DNA of 21,394 nucleotides from a virus: positions 1 through 21,394 of IMG/VR virus record IMGVR_UViG_3300028287_000034; one strand, written 5' to 3'. The notes beneath the pieces were generated by a model. That model had not been told where the DNA came from. It did not search any database and saw only the letters and a program-made list of their open reading frames with translations. The translations under genes were made by a program, and so were the position numbers. This document shows positions 3,825 to 20,798 of this stretch, one piece after another (positions within the stretch are counted from its first letter, which is position 1; each line of letters begins with the position of its first letter).

Positions 3825-4022
3825 TCACGAACGAATGCCCCTATCTATCAACTGCCTGCGAACTCCCCTCCTAACTTGATTCATAGCATGAGGACATGAT
3901 GGTGATGAAGGGGCAGTATAAGTAAATCCTATGTAATGCCTAAAGACTAAATGTGTCCTTTGACGTTCTAAGTCATAACCCATAGAATCCATAAAGATGC
4001 GTACTTCTTTTTTGTATTTCAT
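3825..4022 (-). CDS. HicA-like small protein, 65 aa
   Basis: The order of motifs resembles HicA/YcfA mRNA-interferase-like dsRBD folds: a helix (YKKEVRIFMDSMGYD), then LERQRTHLVFRH with the His of the third strand, a strand (GFTYTAPSSPS) and a terminal helix (HAMNQVRRGVRRQLID). True HicA toxins have G-[ST]-H before the strand; here it is RTH. No HicB partner is adjacent, so it may be an orphan or repurposed RNA-binding protein. The ATG overlaps the stop of the nucleotidyltransferase gene (ATGA). Confidence 0.55.
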   Translation of the reverse strand: MKYKKEVRIFMDSMGYDLERQRTHLVFRHYIGFTYTAPSSPSCPHAMNQVRRGVRRQLIDRGIRS

Positions 4023-4924
4023 GATATGGAGAATTTAGTGTTGTTAAAGTTAGCATAACTGAACTGCTCACGATTAACTAACTTAAATGTACCATACTCA
4101 TTAGAGTAGACATAACCCTCACCACCGATTGGAGTTTGTCCGATGTATGCCTTTGGACCATTATTCCGACAGAGATAGATAGCATCTTCTTTTATTGACT
4201 TAACTAATAACCAGAAACTGATGAGTTTCTCATTCATAAAGGTAGAAGCAATGACAGGACGATTCTCACGAATACAAGAATTAAGTTCCTGTTTAATCAG
4301 TTTGGCATCCTTATCTGTTACAAACTCAACGTTCTGTGCCATTACCTTAGCAAAAGAAATTACATCGTCTAAGTCATGGAATCTCTTCAGTCCATCATCA
4401 TAACGACCGGATGCAATCGTTGCTCTGGGTTTTACAAACTTACAATAGAATGTATCTGTAATAGTGAAGTTCATCGGGTGTGCGATTGCATCCCTTAAAT
4501 CACTCTCTGCTGTGTAATACGTATGAGGGGCAATGATAATCTCCTCTTCTACAATGTTATCGAACTGATAGGTGATTGTGTTCGGTGTGTATTCATCAGT
4601 GCCACCGATTCCGATGAAGTCACCCTGAAAGATGCCGTCAGTTAGTGGAAGATAGTCAAGGCAATTATGGAGGATTGCTGCAACGTTGCCCGTGTGGTTC
4701 CTATTAATGTCCTGATGCGATTCGTTGATTTTGATCTTTACTTTGTTGAATACGGACTTTGTACCCACGAAGAAATTACCGGTCGCAGGATTCTTTCCCC
4801 ATACGATTGCCGGTGCCCCATCCATCTTTACTGACAGATTGCCCTCATTACGTAGACAATCAAGAGCACTTAAATCACCGGTGAGAATGGAATCTTCGGG
4901 ATGTTCGATGTGCTTGTTTTGCAT
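4019..4924 (-). CDS. Putative covalent nucleotidyltransferase (ligase/capping-like), 301 aa
   Basis: Looks like a member of the DNA/RNA ligase and mRNA-capping superfamily, which link a nucleotide to an active-site lysine. Visible motifs: motif I KMDGAP with Lys33, a motif III-like strand FQGDFIG (100-105), motif IV EGYV with Glu269-Gly270, and motif V FKLV with Lys281, in the correct order. I do not see a C-terminal OB domain; the protein ends soon after motif V. From memory similar phage proteins carry a DUF name (DUF6267). Substrate is unknown: RNA repair, nucleic acid modification or protein adenylylation are all possible. The 114-aa and 71-aa genes lie upstream in the same direction. Confidence 0.66.
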   Translation of the reverse strand: MQNKHIEHPEDSILTGDLSALDCLRNEGNLSVKMDGAPAIVWGKNPATGNFFVGTKSVFNKVKIKINESHQDINRNHTGNVAAILHNCLDYLPLTDGIFQGDFIGIGGTDEYTPNTITYQFDNIVEEEIIIAPHTYYTAESDLRDAIAHPMNFTITDTFYCKFVKPRATIASGRYDDGLKRFHDLDDVISFAKVMAQNVEFVTDKDAKLIKQELNSCIRENRPVIASTFMNEKLISFWLLVKSIKEDAIYLCRNNGPKAYIGQTPIGGEGYVYSNEYGTFKLVNREQFSYANFNNTKFSIS

Positions 4925-6999: not shown

Positions 7000-7239
7000 T
7001 TAGTCTATAAGTTCTTTCATCATGTTATTAACCTCGATTCCGTCTATCTTTACATCATCCCACTTACATCCGTCCGGTGTTTCTTTACTACCAGCATCGT
7101 GGATGATACTTACCATGTGTCCGTAAGTTCCACCATCCCTTGCAATGTCACATGCTAGTTCATACAAACCACAATCATTTCCGATCCAGAGAGCAACATT
7201 CCAGGTTTCCCAATTTGCCCAACCGTTGTAACCTTCCAT
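7000..7239 (-). CDS. Conserved phage protein (GWANWETWNVALWIGND family), 79 aa
   Basis: I recognise the N-terminal signature YNGWANWETWNVALWIGND as a small protein family found in many phages (from memory DUF7249); function unknown. Residues 4-22 are the signature, followed by helices (GLYELACDIARDG, THAT region YGHMVSIIHDAG) and a TPDGCKWDD turn. The start is fixed by AGGAATTCACCAAATG after the P3 -10 box. First gene of the P3 unit. Confidence 0.8.
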   Translation of the reverse strand: MEGYNGWANWETWNVALWIGNDCGLYELACDIARDGGTYGHMVSIIHDAGSKETPDGCKWDDVKIDGIEVNNMMKELID

Positions 7240-8836: not shown

Positions 8837-9376
8837 ATGCAATCCAGATTTATAAGGTTTGAGAATACAAAACATCTGAAAGATTATGAAGGTTATGGTA
8901 TTGATGTGGAAGGTAATGTATGGTCATTTAAGAAAAAGAAACCAAAGATGCTTTCCCCCGGATGGAAAAAGAAGAATCATGGATATAGATCTGTTGTATT
9001 AACACCTAAGGATAAAAGCAAACCTTTAAAGAATTTCTTAGTTCATAGATTAGTTGCATTAGCATTCATTCCAACTGATGACATCACAATGCAAGTTAAT
9101 CATATCAATCGTAATAGTACTGATAATACATTAGAAAACTTAGAATGGGTAAGTAGAGAAAAGAATATATCTCATAATGATAAAGTGAATGGATTTAAAT
9201 TAGATTCTTACATAATAGCAAAGATAAAAGAAGTTCACTCTGCTTCTATAAGAAAAGGTCTTCCAGTTCCTACTTCCTATGAATTTATGAATAGTATAAT
9301 AGAAGGTTCATTAGAACAATATATCAATCAGTATGGTTTGCGTAAAGTAATGAATCAATTACCGAAACCAAGTTAA
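8837..9376 (+). CDS. HNH homing endonuclease, 179 aa
   Basis: Free-standing homing endonuclease, a selfish DNA-cutting gene. N-terminal NUMOD4-like segment (DYEGYGIDVEGNVWSF, residues 16-31) and the HNH core: VHRLVALAFIP (69-79) then VNHINRNSTDNTLENLEWVS (87-106), with His89 and the Asn residues in the expected places. The C-terminal 70 residues would be the DNA-recognition part. It is the only clear plus-strand gene in the window, is AT-rich, has its own promoter and leader, and ends one base before the convergent stop of the 210-aa gene. All this suits an acquired mobile gene. Confidence 0.9.
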   Translation: MQSRFIRFENTKHLKDYEGYGIDVEGNVWSFKKKKPKMLSPGWKKKNHGYRSVVLTPKDKSKPLKNFLVHRLVALAFIPTDDITMQVNHINRNSTDNTLENLEWVSREKNISHNDKVNGFKLDSYIIAKIKEVHSASIRKGLPVPTSYEFMNSIIEGSLEQYINQYGLRKVMNQLPKPS

Positions 9377-13299: not shown

Positions 13300-13358
13300 A
13301 TTATAAGGCATCCTGGTGGGGTTTCAACATGCCTTGTGCCACCTCTTCAACTGTCAGC
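13300..13358 (-). promoter_or_regulatory. Promoter cassette P10 (dyad + 29 bp + TATAAT)
   Basis: Minus strand: dyad GCTGACAGT-N6-GGTGGCACA (13335-13358), 29-bp spacer with an AAGGCAT/ATGCCTT 7-bp hairpin, -10 TATAAT (13300-13305). A TTGAAA lies 16 bp before the -10 and may be a partial -35. The leader TACAGAGGTAATCAAG is shared with P14. Confidence 0.7.
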
Positions 13359-13830
13359 ATAATGGTGCCGCCTGACTGGTTTTGTCTATAGTTGATGGCA
13401 CGTATATTTCAGGTGCATCAATCTTACCCAATTCATTCTCCAATCCAACTGGTTGACCGAAAGAATAACCATATTCCAAGGCATTCGCACATACAAAATG
13501 TGGATGATCGACCGAAACACCCAGTCTATTGCACATTTCTGCATGATTATCTGCCATTAACTCTACAGCATAGAGCATATTGTCATTGATATGTGATAAA
13601 GAATGATATTTCAATAATTCTGTCTGCAGTGCTAGCATGAAGTTCCCTGACCCTGCTGCGTTGTCAAGAAATGTGCTGTTCTCATTCATCAGGACAGATT
13701 CAGGAATCTCTGATGCCATTTCGGTACACAATTCCATGGGTGTGAATACTTCTCCTGTCTGATCAATACGTTCATCAGATCTTGCAATCTCTGACCCGAC
13801 TGATTCATTGTGTGTGTTTTTACTTGGCAT
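13354..13830 (-). CDS. Adenine methyltransferase half: SAM-binding part without NPPY, 158 aa
   Basis: N-terminal part of an N6-adenine DNA methyltransferase. DQTGEVFTPMELCTEMAS (23-40) is the motif X-type G.[FV][FY]TP segment; FLDNAAGSGNFMLAL (54-68) is an intact motif I that binds S-adenosylmethionine; YAVEL (87-91) supplies the acidic motif II residue; FVCANALEYG resembles motif III. The chain then ends (STIDKTSQAAPLC) where the catalytic NPPY should follow. It overlaps the nuclease gene by 11 nt. It could be a truncated remnant, or the SAM-binding partner of the NPPY subunit encoded two genes upstream. An in-frame GTG nine bases earlier is an alternative start. Confidence 0.75.
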   Translation of the reverse strand: MPSKNTHNESVGSEIARSDERIDQTGEVFTPMELCTEMASEIPESVLMNENSTFLDNAAGSGNFMLALQTELLKYHSLSHINDNMLYAVELMADNHAEMCNRLGVSVDHPHFVCANALEYGYSFGQPVGLENELGKIDAPEIYVPSTIDKTSQAAPLC

Positions 13831-14386
13831 TCTGCTCACTTACGATGGTGCGGAGTGTATCCCAGAAAGGCACGTTGTTATCAACACGTAGTGCAATCTG
13901 TTCTCGGGAGATACAATGAACATTTGCCATTGCATGTTTAGGGTGAACACCCTTACAACTAGTGACAATAATAACATTTTTGCCATTGTATTGCAACCCT
14001 TCATTCATGGTCGCGTCAGCAGCAACGTTACTGATATTGTCCTTATTTGTCAGATAGGTGTTACGGTCTGCCTTGAACTTATGCTGAATGACGTTAGGCA
14101 GTCCGTCTAATGTGCTGATGCCACGTCCATCAATACCACGGTCATAATCCGTGTTTGGTGTATAGTCTGACGTATATGTTAGCGTATGGTCTTTATCCAA
14201 CACCTTGAAGAAATACTCAATGAACCATTCAAATCCGTCTCCCATATATTTCAATGGGTCATAGAAATCAGGGTCTTGTTTCTTACCGGCAGCAACCAAC
14301 TTTTTAAGGAACTTGTCTAGTGTGTTCTCAGAGATTAGCGAGTCAATCTCTTCGCAATCGTAACCAAATGTGTGAATGAGTTTCAT
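13820..14386 (-). CDS. PD-(D/E)XK nuclease-like protein, 188 aa
   Basis: Resembles restriction-endonuclease-like (Mrr/type ISP class) nucleases. Visible features: GDGFEWFIEYFFKVL with Glu53 and Glu57 in a helix (49-63), then TDYDRGIDGRGIS with Asp82 and Asp86, then NVIQHKFK with Gln101 and Lys103, i.e. a D-x(2-3)-GID...QxK signature typical of QxK-type PD-(D/E)XK enzymes. These residues would bind metal and cut DNA. The C-terminal part (NVIIVTSCKGVHPKHAMANV) is another alpha/beta portion. It lies between two methyltransferase halves and follows the NPPY gene by 5 nt. A TTG start three codons earlier is possible. Confidence 0.68.
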   Translation of the reverse strand: MKLIHTFGYDCEEIDSLISENTLDKFLKKLVAAGKKQDPDFYDPLKYMGDGFEWFIEYFFKVLDKDHTLTYTSDYTPNTDYDRGIDGRGISTLDGLPNVIQHKFKADRNTYLTNKDNISNVAADATMNEGLQYNGKNVIIVTSCKGVHPKHAMANVHCISREQIALRVDNNVPFWDTLRTIVSEQNAK

Positions 14387-14391
14387 GATAA

Positions 14392-15480
14392 TCAACCGAG
14401 CAATTTGATGACTTCCAGTTTATTCCAACCGGACCACTTGAAAACATTCATGATCTCTTGAATATCAGGACCATTAAGATAATCTGCCAAGTCTTGTGCT
14501 TCTTCTACTGTCTCACATTCTGTCCATACGATTGTTGCAGTGCCACCCATATTTTGCATCACACGAAATATAGGATAACCGCTGAGACTAATACCAACTC
14601 GGATCTTGTCATTGTTAGGATGATGAACAGTAGTCTTGAATGATTGTGCAGTAGTGTGCCATACTTCCACACCTTCTTCACTTGCCCACTTAGATTTATG
14701 AGTTGTGTGATATTCTGTGGTTCTCTGCCATTTACGATTATTGGTAAAGAACTTGTAAAGACTCAGATTGTGCTCATTGACAACTTTAGGAAGAAAGTCA
14801 TAGGTAGACAAGTCAAGAGAAAAAACACCATCAGTGGCAATAACTTCAGTGTTGCCAGTATACTTAGGATCCCATACAATACGGCAGAAAGTAGAACCAA
14901 CGCCAGGGAAATGATCACCAACAGTGAGATCAATCTTGACAAGATTATTACAAATCAGATTCCACATCTTGCCGGGAGATGTAATCGATGCAGGAATCAC
15001 ATAGGAAACATATTCACTATTCTCAACCGCAGTCTGTAAGAATTGATGCCACAACACCCAACGCTTAGAGTTAGAATTACCCTGATATGGTGGGTTGCCA
15101 AGTGTTGCAGTGAAGTTCATATTGCAGCGAGTCCAGTTGTTCATAGGAGGGACATAGTATGTAACACCGAGTTTCACACATCCTTTCTTCATAATATCAT
15201 AATACTGATTCTGACTATCTGTCAAGTCAGAATGTGTATTCTCAAGATAAACAATGTTAGTATATCCGTGCTCAATCAGAGTCAGAGTCAGCGTCAAGAA
15301 AGTATCAACAACACCGATTGTTGCATCCTTAGAGATACCACGATCATTCAATTCTTGCACCATCTGCTGTGCAAGATCCTCAGGAATTGGTTGCCTACCG
15401 TCAACAGGTTTGATGCCTTTCTTGTAATAAGAAAGCAATGCTTCCCGTTTCTGTGCATAAGATGCCTCGGTCACATACAT
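14392..15480 (-). CDS. NPPY-type adenine DNA methyltransferase subunit, 362 aa
   Basis: Eco57I-like N6-adenine methyltransferase: the catalytic motif IV NPPY (129-132, in TATLGNPPYQGNSNSKRW) is followed by the usual helix and VIPASITSPGKMWNLI strand, then a C-terminal target-recognition-like region. The place of SAM motif I (about 56-71, IGVVDTFLTLTLTLIEHGYT) lacks the D.x.GxG pattern, so SAM binding may be poor without a partner. The start is the ATG after the P11 -10 box; a longer frame reaching the helicase stop would run through a terminator and promoter and is rejected. First gene of a unit that continues with the nuclease and the SAM-binding half. Confidence 0.82.
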   Translation of the reverse strand: MYVTEASYAQKREALLSYYKKGIKPVDGRQPIPEDLAQQMVQELNDRGISKDATIGVVDTFLTLTLTLIEHGYTNIVYLENTHSDLTDSQNQYYDIMKKGCVKLGVTYYVPPMNNWTRCNMNFTATLGNPPYQGNSNSKRWVLWHQFLQTAVENSEYVSYVIPASITSPGKMWNLICNNLVKIDLTVGDHFPGVGSTFCRIVWDPKYTGNTEVIATDGVFSLDLSTYDFLPKVVNEHNLSLYKFFTNNRKWQRTTEYHTTHKSKWASEEGVEVWHTTAQSFKTTVHHPNNDKIRVGISLSGYPIFRVMQNMGGTATIVWTECETVEEAQDLADYLNGPDIQEIMNVFKWSGWNKLEVIKLLG

Positions 15481-15505
15481 GATGCTGTTTGTTTGAACTG
15501 AAGTC

Positions 15506-15565
15506 ATTATACAATAAAAAACCACCCCTGTGATGGAGTGGTGGACAGTTTGATCAACTGGCACA
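15506..15565 (-). promoter_or_regulatory. Promoter cassette P11 (dyad + 30 bp + TATAAT)
   Basis: Minus strand: dyad TGTGCCAGT-N6-AACTGTCCA (15542-15565), 30-bp spacer wholly occupied by a terminator, -10 TATAAT (15506-15511). The dyad begins 1 nt after the helicase stop codon. It separates the helicase from the methyltransferase unit and allows independent expression. Confidence 0.72.
15516..15541 (-). terminator. Rho-independent terminator after helicase
   Basis: Stem CCACTCC/GGGGTGG (one G-U pair) with a 6-7-nt loop followed by TTTTTT on the minus strand. It sits inside the spacer of P11, between dyad and -10 box, so the helicase transcript would end just before the next transcript begins. 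Confidence 0.8.
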
Positions 15566-15566
15566 C

Positions 15567-16967
15567 TCATCCGAGAATGTCCAGAGGATCACCACTAGAA
15601 AGAAGATCCTGAATCATCATACTGTGCTGCCATTGAATATCATAGTCTGCAACACGTTGCTTAAGGTTTTTGGTCAGATCTTCGACGATCTCATCTTCCT
15701 TACCGCGACCAGATACCTCAGTCACGATCTCATCAACTGGCACACCTTGAGTGAGCAATTGATTGACAATTCCTGCCATGCAGTACCAAGCATCGTCAGT
15801 ATCATCGCCATGCTGAATGATAGTTACAATGCCATACTTTTTGCCAGGGGAGGAACGAATTACACGACCCATTGCCTGAACTGCTTTGATATTAGAGCAG
15901 ATATTGCGCATGAAAACTGTACCTGTGAATGCCTTGACATCGATACCCTCACCGAGCATATCGTAGTGGAGAACAATCATTTTGCGGGTCAAGTCTTCGC
16001 CCAGTTCATTAAGTTTAGCAAGGAACTTACCTTTAGCATTAGGAGAAGAGATCTGTGTCTCATTCATATATCCACCGTTCACACTGTCAACAGACAGAAG
16101 ATCGTAACCCTTGTCATTTGCCCACTTAATCATAGCAAGGCGCATACCCTGAATGTTAGCAGTGCCGCGACATGCAACCAGAATCTTGTGTGCTCCAGTC
16201 TCGTAATGCTCGGTCTCATAGTAATTAACTGTCTCCATCAGAGTGTCAACATCAGCAGAAATCTCATCAAGATTCCTCTTCTCAGCGTTGCTAACTTGCA
16301 GATGCAGCACAGGTTCAACAATAGAGCCAGACTCTACAAGATCACCAAACTTAATGTTAGCAATGTGCTCACCATACACAGCAGAGTTATCGAAACCTCT
16401 GCCAGTTGTTGACTCACTGCGACGAGGGGTTGCAGTAAAGTAGTAAGCATGATTTGCAAGGGCACTGATATCCTCTACAGCGTCGAAAGAATCATTATCT
16501 GCTGCATTATGTGCTTCATCGAAATAGGCAACAGTCACAGGAATGTTAGCAGCAACCACACGTTTCAGACTTTTATATGTGCTGAAAAGAATCAGCGGTT
16601 GCTGTGCTTTCTGTGCAATAGAATAGATCTCTTCGATCTCATCGATGGTTGTAGTTGATGACTGAGGTTGTACCTTTATACGGAACTTGAGATTGTTACG
16701 ATTACGCTGCCAAGTCCTAGAATCGGAAGATACTTGACGATAAACGAAATCTGCATCAGAGAGATGCTCATCGAACTCATTAAACAGTTGTTCAGACAGC
16801 AGATGTTGAGGAGCAACAACAACAATCACATTGCCAGGTGTCAAGAATCGACGGCAATCAGTGATGAAAGTGAAAGTCTTGCCAGCACCAGTGCCAGCGG
16901 TCAGATAACCTTTGTTGTTTGCTGCCATCGCATCAAGCATTTCCTGCTGATAGGGACGGAGTTGCAT
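15567..16967 (-). CDS. SF2 DNA helicase/translocase (restriction-type), 466 aa
   Basis: Superfamily 2 ATPase of the type found in type I, III and ISP restriction enzymes. In order: RPYQ (4-7), Walker A AGTGAGKT (24-31), motif Ia VVVAPQHLLSEQ, DEAH box YFDEAH (148-153), motif III TATP (178-181), a second RecA domain with LHYDMLGEGIDV (motif V) and QAMGRVIRS (motif VI). All ATPase motifs look intact. No nuclease or methylase domain is fused; these functions are encoded by the three following genes. UvsW-type phage helicases are the main alternative, but the pairing with an NPPY methyltransferase favours a restriction-like role. Driven by P12. Confidence 0.88.
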   Translation of the reverse strand: MQLRPYQQEMLDAMAANNKGYLTAGTGAGKTFTFITDCRRFLTPGNVIVVVAPQHLLSEQLFNEFDEHLSDADFVYRQVSSDSRTWQRNRNNLKFRIKVQPQSSTTTIDEIEEIYSIAQKAQQPLILFSTYKSLKRVVAANIPVTVAYFDEAHNAADNDSFDAVEDISALANHAYYFTATPRRSESTTGRGFDNSAVYGEHIANIKFGDLVESGSIVEPVLHLQVSNAEKRNLDEISADVDTLMETVNYYETEHYETGAHKILVACRGTANIQGMRLAMIKWANDKGYDLLSVDSVNGGYMNETQISSPNAKGKFLAKLNELGEDLTRKMIVLHYDMLGEGIDVKAFTGTVFMRNICSNIKAVQAMGRVIRSSPGKKYGIVTIIQHGDDTDDAWYCMAGIVNQLLTQGVPVDEIVTEVSGRGKEDEIVEDLTKNLKQRVADYDIQWQHSMMIQDLLSSGDPLDILG

Positions 16968-16990: not shown

Positions 16991-17049
16991 ATTATAATGC
17001 CATCAGACGGTTCTGAAACCCCTGCTGTGACACTTGTTCGACTGGCACA
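16991..17049 (-). promoter_or_regulatory. Promoter cassette P12 (dyad + 29 bp + TATAAT)
   Basis: Minus strand: dyad TGTGCCAGT-N6-AGTGTCACA (17026-17049), 29-bp spacer with a TCAGA/TCTGA hairpin, -10 TATAAT (16991-16996). The dyad ends 2 nt after the metallopeptidase stop. Drives the helicase. Confidence 0.7.
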
Positions 17050-17051
17050 CT

Positions 17052-17468
17052 TTATTTCTCATTTAACCACTGATCATATAACCTTACTTCTTCCTCCCGT
17101 GCCTCAATTTCATGTGGTTGATCCTCATAATCGTAATTACTCACTGGTTCGAGTGAATAACACAATTTTCCATATCGGGATCGCAGGTCACCACGTATCC
17201 ACTGTGCCATATGGGTCAGTTCATGAAAAAGAGTTTTTATATATGTTTCCTTATCCATATGTGCCTGAAGTTCAATCAGGAAGTGTCGTGGTCGATAATA
17301 TCCATCAATCACATCACAATAACCAACAACACCATCACGTTTCAGTCCTTTATGAATAATGTCCACATCAATTTTATGTCGTGGAAAATATTCATTCAAA
17401 AACCAAGAGGTAACATCCTCACAGATGATCTTAGAATAACCGTATCCAAAGTGGTAGATGGAACTCAT
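17052..17468 (-). CDS. SprT-like zinc metallopeptidase, 138 aa
   Basis: Small metallopeptidase: the zinc site HELTHMAQW (HExxH, around residue 83) follows a helix (KETYIKTLFHELTH), and a third ligand is likely in PHEIEAREEEVR near the C-terminus. N-terminal strands include RPRHFLIELQAHM. Cyanophages often carry such SprT-like genes, perhaps for cutting DNA-protein crosslinks or host proteins. It is the last gene of the P13 unit; its ATG abuts the stop of the 31-aa gene (TAAATG). Confidence 0.8.
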   Translation of the reverse strand: MSSIYHFGYGYSKIICEDVTSWFLNEYFPRHKIDVDIIHKGLKRDGVVGYCDVIDGYYRPRHFLIELQAHMDKETYIKTLFHELTHMAQWIRGDLRSRYGKLCYSLEPVSNYDYEDQPHEIEAREEEVRLYDQWLNEK

Positions 17469-20045: not shown

Positions 20046-20220
20046 CTTTCTGTTTCCTACGAACTTTTTTCATTTCTTTCATCTCAGATTTAATCATTTG
20101 ATATGCATCTTCTGATGAAAGTTTATTTGCCATTTCCATAGCAGTAATGATTTCTACTCTCGTTCCAAAATGCTGTAATGCTTTTTCAAAACAATTCAAC
20201 TCTGAATAAATGGTAATCAC
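20038..20220 (-). CDS. Conserved small phage protein with altered start, 60 aa
   Basis: The main part (FEKALQHFGTRVEIITAMEM, ANKLSSEDAYQMIKSEMKEM, KKVRRKQKDD) is a helical, basic protein type I recall from other cyanophages. No ATG is available at the expected place: the only upstream start is a GTG overlapping the stop of the homing endonuclease, directly against an AGGAGG, too close for normal initiation. An internal TTG or ATT, 7-21 nt after AGGAGG, may be used. The N-terminus may have been replaced when the endonuclease gene was inserted. Confidence 0.62.
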   Translation of the reverse strand: MITIYSELNCFEKALQHFGTRVEIITAMEMANKLSSEDAYQMIKSEMKEMKKVRRKQKDD

Positions 20221-20798
20221 CTCCTTTTATATGGTCCTAATGGTATTCTACCAGGAACAAACTGTTTACCTGGACATTCTACACTACGTTTAGTGATTTG
20301 TCCATCATTCCACCATGTTGTGCCTTTTTGACTATGGCGATTTCCTGGAAATGGTCTACCTTTATACAACTTACTTAACTTCTCTCTAATTTCTTTTGTA
20401 TGAGTTTTACCAAGCATTCCATGAATACTTGTTCTATTTTTTGCAGATTTACTCATTTTTTTCTTATCTTCATCACTACGTCTCTTACCAGTATTTGATT
20501 TCCCAATCTTTTCTTTCGTCTCCTCACTCATCTTCCAACCAGATTTTCCATCTCCACCATCAGTTAAATTTCTCAAAATCCCTGTGCCCAAATCCTTTCT
20601 ACCAAATATGGCAATCATATACTTTTCGTGCTTAAATGCTTCTTCTTCAGTAAGGTTTTGTTTCAAAAATACTCTTTTATTTTTTGGAGGCAAACCTGAA
20701 TAATGAGTGTTAGGATTATCTATTCTTCTTCCCGTTCCTTTACCAACATAGTAGGGAGTTCCATCTTCACGCAAATATGCGTAAGTGTAGTATTTCAT
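20217..20798 (-). CDS. GIY-YIG homing endonuclease with NUMOD3 repeats, 193 aa
   Basis: Seg-type free-standing homing endonuclease. GIY-YIG domain: TYAYLREDGTPYYVGKGTGR with Tyr6, Tyr8, Tyr17, Gly19 and Arg25, catalytic Glu58 in KHEKYMI, and LRNLTDGGDG. DNA-binding NUMOD3 units follow: GWKMSEETKEKIGKSNTGKR (about 87-106) and HGMLGKTHTKEIREKLSKLY plus KGR. The basic C-terminus (RSVECPGKQFVPGRIPLGPY) completes recognition. It is preceded by a terminator within a 12-bp inverted repeat and overlaps the next gene, signs of insertion. Confidence 0.9.
   Translation of the reverse strand: MKYYTYAYLREDGTPYYVGKGTGRRIDNPNTHYSGLPPKNKRVFLKQNLTEEEAFKHEKYMIAIFGRKDLGTGILRNLTDGGDGKSGWKMSEETKEKIGKSNTGKRRSDEDKKKMSKSAKNRTSIHGMLGKTHTKEIREKLSKLYKGRPFPGNRHSQKGTTWWNDGQITKRSVECPGKQFVPGRIPLGPYKRR

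Follow-up and report, generated by a model that had tools for sequence, protein, structure and literature searches.

Relation to described restriction and methylation systems

The type ISP restriction enzymes LlaGI and LlaBIII are single polypeptides that combine a nuclease, a helicase, a coupler, a methyltransferase (MTase) and a target-recognition domain (TRD) (PMC4666363). The DNA analyzed here, a 21,394-base (21.4-kb) fragment of a T4-like marine cyanophage of the Kyanoviridae (IMG/VR record IMGVR_UViG_3300028287_000034, positions 1 to 21,394; hereafter the window), carries four consecutive genes that resemble these enzymes in offering a Mrr-type nuclease, a superfamily 2 (SF2) helicase-like ATPase, a gamma-type MTase and target recognition. 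They differ in that the phage system consists of four chains, occurs in lytic phages and has an MTase that is cut between motif III and motif IV. A preliminary description of the locus had drawn the parallel with type ISP; the set of activities does correspond, in separate chains, but membership in that class was rejected because there are four genes rather than a single chain.

There is good sequence support for reading the MTase of this locus as one enzyme in two chains. The gamma-class N6-adenine MTases (M.BseCI, type I HsdM, CamA) share with it the NPPY motif, the S-adenosylmethionine (SAM) motifs and the fold; in the phage, however, motifs X and I-III and the NPPY motif IV are divided between two proteins, or are permuted when the two are fused. 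Circularly permuted M.EcoKI-like adenine methylases have been described in jumbo phages, T4-like and Lak phages belonging to group 2, in the passages found of Iyer et al. 2021 (PMC7824862). The permuted order of the halves is that of the Aeromonas phage fusions discussed below, but a split form, a constant SAM subunit and linked cassettes are absent from those passages of the paper (PMC7824862). M.AquI and M.EcoHK31I are natural C5-MTases of two polypeptides, and in this respect similar; M.AquI, however, is cut after motif VIII and M.EcoHK31I has only motif IX apart, and both are cytosine-C5 enzymes that keep motifs I and IV together (PMC3404938). The open-licence papers searched yielded neither an adenine MTase split between motif I and motif IV nor a cyanophage restriction operon. 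The parts are known; what was not found in this literature is a gamma-type adenine MTase split between motifs III and IV, with a constant cofactor subunit, a swappable catalytic/recognition subunit and exchangeable nucleases.

Organization of the four-gene locus

As the preliminary description had it, four consecutive open reading frames (ORFs) lie on the minus strand from 16967 to 13354, in the order helicase, NPPY methyltransferase (MT), nuclease and SAM-binding half (SAM half). These and a candidate regulatory interval are as follows.

15567-16967, minus strand: SF2 helicase-like ATPase, 466 amino acids (aa) (ResIII/DEAD, phrog_16)
14392-15570, minus strand: putative NPPY catalytic/target-recognition subunit (MT), 392 aa as annotated (phrog_3689, AlphaFold, Foldseek)
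13820-14395, minus strand: PD-(D/E)XK-like nuclease, 191 aa (invariant residues, AlphaFold, Foldseek)
13354-13839, minus strand: SAM-binding half with motifs X, I, II and III and no motif IV, 161 aa (N6_Mtase, phrog_4376)
15506-15542, minus strand: terminator-like hairpin and promoter-like element (ATCACA-17-TATAAT) in the helicase/MT interval, found by pattern scan only

Homologues, together with the terminator- and promoter-like sites upstream, place the likely start of MT at the ATG at 15480 (362 aa). Judged by homologues, the likely starts of the nuclease and the SAM half are the ATGs at 14386 (188 aa) and 13830 (158 aa), respectively, and with the revised starts these two genes share an overlap of about 11 nt. 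For each of the four proteins the closest named relative is from Synechococcus phage Bellamy, also of the Kyanoviridae, with identities of 79% for the helicase, 79% for the nuclease and 82% for the SAM half. The four-gene set is not a chance arrangement: it recurs in Bellamy, ACG-2014f, S-CAM7 and, among IMG/VR contigs, in dozens.

A probable single methyltransferase in two proteins

The MT chain carries the sequence LGNPPY, with NPPY at residues 159-162. It matches the Pfam Eco57I family weakly (E 0.004) and phrog_3689, annotated "DNA methyltransferase", clearly (E 1.5e-32), which bears out the earlier assignment to Eco57I-like NPPY methyltransferases. Ahead of NPPY lies a degenerate SAM-binding half (residues ~85-139) that has no glycine loop, so that motif I is absent; the C-terminal part is TRD-like and variable. 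The AlphaFold model (predicted local distance difference test, pLDDT, 87) has a full Rossmann fold, and Foldseek relates it to M.BseCI (E 3e-9), HsdM and other N6-adenine MTases, in keeping with a gamma-class amino-MTase fold.

In the SAM half, Pfam N6_Mtase covers positions 23-87 only, and its family, phrog_4376, has no function annotated. The protein can be aligned over its full length in nine phages; motifs X and I-III are invariant and the chain stops ahead of motif IV. The preliminary description had called it a second methyltransferase part. The SAM-binding motifs are indeed there, but a second complete MTase was rejected, since all aligned members end before motif IV. Instead, the sequences suggest that it is a conserved constant subunit that supplies the SAM-binding motifs lost or absent in the NPPY protein.

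The division of motifs was followed across loci. Eighty IMG/VR loci with a SAM half were taken, and in 77 loci, comprising those of the IMG/VR scan, named phages and the window, the NPPY motif of the partner could be read. The partner was on the same strand as the SAM half in all 77, with the SAM half downstream in 76. All 77 SAM halves had a GxGN motif I; even a permissive motif I pattern found matches in only 9 of the 77 partners, mostly of the form PGxG, and at least 68 of the 77 partners were without motif I. The regular expression used for motif I is crude: of 13 ordinary controls, it misses 3 when applied within 170 residues and none when applied within 350. Pfam coverage is likewise complementary, with N6_Mtase at 21-86 of the SAM half and either Eco57I at 31-171 or N6_Mtase at 103-253 of the partners. 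Complementary motifs and genetic linkage of the two chains, as looked for in a split N6-adenine MTase, were thus both found.

Natural fusions of the two parts were found as well. In Aeromonas phages Aeh1 (Aeh1p090), phiAS5 (phiAS5_215) and ZPAH1 (ZPAH1_67), NPPY stands at residues 9-15 of a single chain, which has the SAM half close to its C-terminal end (~290-370). Aligned with M.BseCI, the profile of these fusions is permuted: 289-374 corresponds to 10-94 of M.BseCI, and 6-17 to 128-139, the NPPY stretch, this second piece being weak when taken alone.

Partners of the SAM half are of three kinds. Some start almost at NPPY, about eight residues before it (P-SSM2_036, ACG-2014f gp186); others have a degenerate SAM half ahead of NPPY (the window, Bellamy, ACG-2014f gp053); and others again are long chains fused to a helicase-containing R protein (as in Synechococcus phage ME01, 1074 aa). 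The three kinds are intermixed on the SAM-half tree, which suggests, but does not prove, one docking mode for all.

A constant SAM half beside exchanged cassettes

Comparison of closely related isolates shows different cassettes beside nearly the same SAM half. Two S-CAM7 isolates share 99.6% identity ahead of the cassette; past it, similarity resumes at position 7121 of locus L004, one base before the SAM-half start, and continues at 99.2% identity. The replaced interval holds nuclease-MT-helicase in one isolate and R-MT in the other. In three isolates of ACG-2014f, the SAM half and its left flank are 95.5-99.3% identical, and the alleles beside it are nuclease-MT-helicase (C90), R-NPPY (C24) and nothing (C7). 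The "empty" isolate keeps a lone NPPY half, gp186, 100 kb off, and all 35 records with a gp186-like NPPY match also have a SAM half. The filled, empty and alternative sites near 36 kb (NC_026927, NC_047712 and KJ019151) form a natural allele set. On a tree of 59 SAM-half sequences, five partner classes require 19 changes, compared with a minimum possible of 4. The SAM half thus accompanies quite different restriction cassettes, and it also occurs in bacteria.

The MT gene is exchanged too. Among 28 four-gene loci, median pairwise identity is 61% for the helicase, 73% for the nuclease and 71% for the SAM half, and it is 46% for the N-terminal and 23% for the C-terminal part of MT. Between loci L032 and L034 the helicases are 92%, the nucleases 97% and the SAM halves 92% alike, but the C-terminal parts of their MTs are unrelated; the L032 MT is shared with L069. 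The MT gene and its TRD-like C-terminal part are exchanged among loci and have the look of a specificity subunit. A separate S subunit with two TRDs, as in type I systems, was not found, as the operon showed no other conserved gene; judging by these sequences, target recognition seems to lie in MT.

Helicase and nuclease

The helicase matches ResIII (E 5e-17) and DEAD (E 3e-11) of Pfam. All of its motifs are intact (Walker A GTGAGKT, DEAH, TATP and QAMGRVIR, the last of the form QxxGRxxR), as first described, and it corresponds to the SF2 helicase-like ATPase of the type ISP enzymes.

The nuclease family, phrog_7683, has no function annotated. Residues E56, D85-G-x-D89 and Q104-x-K106 are invariant among 26 relatives, and the catalytic residues are also kept in the homologue of Prevotella megaphage Lak-B2, at 24% identity. 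The AlphaFold model (pLDDT 92.4; predicted template modelling score, pTM, 0.90) has the core alpha-beta3-alpha-beta, that is, a helix, three strands, a helix and a strand; E56 lies in a helix, D89 just ahead of the second strand, and Q104 and K106 in the third. The best Foldseek matches in the PDB, all weak, are mostly PD-(D/E)XK nucleases, with HindIII, EcoO109I, Card1, FokI and Hjc at the top. A PDB sequence search with the nuclease profile gave no match; Pfam gave only Mrr_cat, at E 0.02-0.05, for three members; and NCBIfam and PADLOC models matched neither MT nor the nuclease. The invariant E-D-QxK residues and the modelled core agree with the Mrr/PD-(D/E)XK nuclease of type ISP enzymes, although Foldseek and Pfam support is weak. 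Together they give good, not final, support to the earlier proposal of a PD-(D/E)XK-like nuclease, for which absence of such a core had been named as the refuting outcome.

The genes stay linked in relatives with varying order, where scattering would have counted against the proposed group. Helicase and nuclease are neighbours in 40 of the 42 loci that have the nuclease, the remaining 2 ending at a contig edge. Beside the nuclease, 38 of these loci have MT and 35 have the SAM half, and in 3 more the SAM half lies just past the helicase. In L115 (4878-8050), which is of the L114-L116 type, the nuclease-helicase pair is followed by a 362-aa protein with FGDLYDTVLIDVDDN at the expected place of NPPY; no SAM half was found in that contig.

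Distribution beyond cyanophages

Lak-B2 carries the helicase, PD-(D/E)XK-like nuclease, NPPY protein and SAM half in a single run. Klebsiella phage PKO111 (gp114/115) and Vibrio phage phi-ST2 (0371/0372) have the same split MTase core with a separate SAM half, but their nuclease domain is GIY-YIG, LEM-3-like (E 3e-15 and 6e-16), and is fused to the NPPY half, which the SAM half follows.

A scan of bacterial genomes gave 11 distant chromosomal matches, every one in actinobacterial records; a genome scan using the most divergent SAM alignment gave no conserved stretch. The actinobacterial SAM half is about 225-290 aa long without NPPY, and in L128 is part of a longer open frame. In the loci examined more closely, an R protein (~1100 aa) and an NPPY half (~350 aa, beginning MxKKFDVVIGNPPYQ) come after it; these two are fused in L134. 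Such a SAM half was present in 13 of 396 evenly drawn genomes of the phylum. In matched and sampled genomes together, 22 of 23 Eco57I proteins adjoining a SAM half were without motif I; the controls, unlinked Eco57I proteins in the same genomes, had motif I within 350 residues in 13 of 13 cases.

Proposed mechanism and alternatives

The analysis shows linkage, complementary motifs, fusion and permutation, exchange of cassettes around the SAM half, and exchange of MT. We consider it likely that the genes encode a system that resembles restriction-modification and depends on ATP, in which the SAM subunit stays constant and the specificity and restriction subunits can be swapped; from these observations we infer physical assembly, use of SAM, methylation, translocation, cleavage and the targets. 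In such a system, an N6-adenine (or N4-cytosine) MTase would be made up of the constant SAM subunit (motifs X and I-III) and a variable NPPY/TRD-like subunit, and the two would together bind DNA at a particular site and methylate that site in the genome of the phage itself. Sites left unmodified, whether they belong to the host or to a rival phage, would be attacked: the complex would call in the SF2 helicase for translocation and the PD-(D/E)XK nuclease for cutting in the fashion of type I or type ISP enzymes, a cleavage arm that the parts suggest. In type ISP systems, translocation is driven by ATP and DNA is cleaved once two enzymes have collided. More broadly, we give about even credence to a general class of split MTases in phages and bacteria, in which a constant SAM subunit serves interchangeable NPPY/recognition subunits and nucleases (PD-(D/E)XK or GIY-YIG), sometimes with two NPPY subunits per genome (ACG-2014f, with gp053- and gp186-type proteins and just one SAM half); exchanging cassettes beside the unchanged cofactor subunit would then give a phage a new restriction specificity.

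Several observations weigh against a two-chain MTase within a restriction-like system. The degenerate half of the window MT is modelled as beta1-alpha-beta2-alpha-beta3 (pLDDT 93-97) in the very place where the SAM half should dock, and the acid at the end of its beta2 (E110) is well conserved. The two-halves model fits P-SSM2-like and bacterial partners better than the window MT; in complexes of the window type, either the degenerate half would be displaced or the SAM half would dock otherwise. It should also be noted that the phage loci are related to one another, so that the counts given above are not independent, and that no Foldseek match of the nuclease reached E<0.001. Finally, the helicase, nuclease and SAM half sometimes occur without one of the others: L114-L116 have the nuclease and helicase with a different protein, and L120 (1270-4790) has the nuclease and an SF2 helicase split over two genes with an NPPY gene between, with no SAM half within its 49-kb record.

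The modelled Rossmann fold, the match to M.BseCI along the length of the window MT and the conserved acid would also suit an MT chain that is complete, with a divergent SAM pocket, the SAM half being accessory or regulatory (a sensor, allosteric activator or decoy). We regard this as quite unlikely, as the glycine loop of motif I is absent, the N-terminal half is missing altogether from many partners, and fused, permuted single chains exist. A purely anti-restriction role, in which MT and the SAM half protect phage DNA by methylation and the helicase and nuclease are recombination or repair neighbours (UvsW- or resolvase-like), is unlikely in our judgement. Several loci (P-SSM2, S-SKS1) do have the NPPY half and SAM half with no cassette helicase or nuclease, phrog_16 includes general cyanophage helicases along with that of the window, and Hjc resolvases are among the nuclease matches. 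However, the nuclease-helicase-MT block is present or absent as a whole in ACG-2014f and replaced as a whole in S-CAM7, alternative cassettes carry a different helicase-containing R protein, and Lak megaphages share the same four parts. It had also been suggested that the group could be a remnant under new use. The degenerate SAM half within MT and the short genes might be expected if a type ISP-like enzyme had been fragmented by mutation and were decaying, but the frames are open, the catalytic residues invariant, and the same sets recur in dozens of phages and contigs with parallel operons in bacteria, which makes decay highly improbable. A chance or remnant cluster was rejected in view of the wide recurrence and invariant motifs.

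Other features of the window

Directly 5' of the helicase lies a zincin-like gene (17052-17468, minus strand; HELTH motif, phrog_10499), with homologues at or near the module in L011, L012, L014, L016, L018, L109, L118 and L119; it is possibly a matter of local synteny or an accessory gene. A short element, GTGTGCCAGTTGA, occurs in 17 copies in the window at up to 3 mismatches, compared with 6.1 expected; examples are 15554-15566, 15733-15745 and 17038-17050 (minus strand), and there are copies ahead of the helicase and close to the MT start. An HNH_3 endonuclease of homing type (8837-9376, plus strand) is encoded on the strand opposite to nearly all other genes of the window. By eye, a GIY-YIG-like frame (YTYAYLREDGTPYYVGKG) with the look of a homing endonuclease was recognized at 20217-20798 (minus strand), and a similar frame is present at L115:8091-8963. 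A DUF6267 protein (4019-4924, minus strand; 301 aa) is below the length of the family model and matches it in two stretches.

Implications

Restriction enzymes are usually sorted by the arrangement of whole domains, and an MTase with cofactor site and catalytic motif on separate chains, and with the cofactor half in the role of a shared, constant subunit, is an unusual architecture. If the two-chain reading is true, many proteins annotated as "DNA methyltransferase" (phrog_3689 and those matched by NPPY-only PADLOC MTase_II models) would be unable to work alone, and phrog_4376 would be the missing half of phrog_3689-type and NPPY-only proteins. The pair, as a naturally split enzyme, would also provide a scaffold for directing adenine methylation to chosen targets. 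For the cyanophages themselves, the proposed system offers a testable account of how lytic phages could combat their rivals or break down the DNA of the host.

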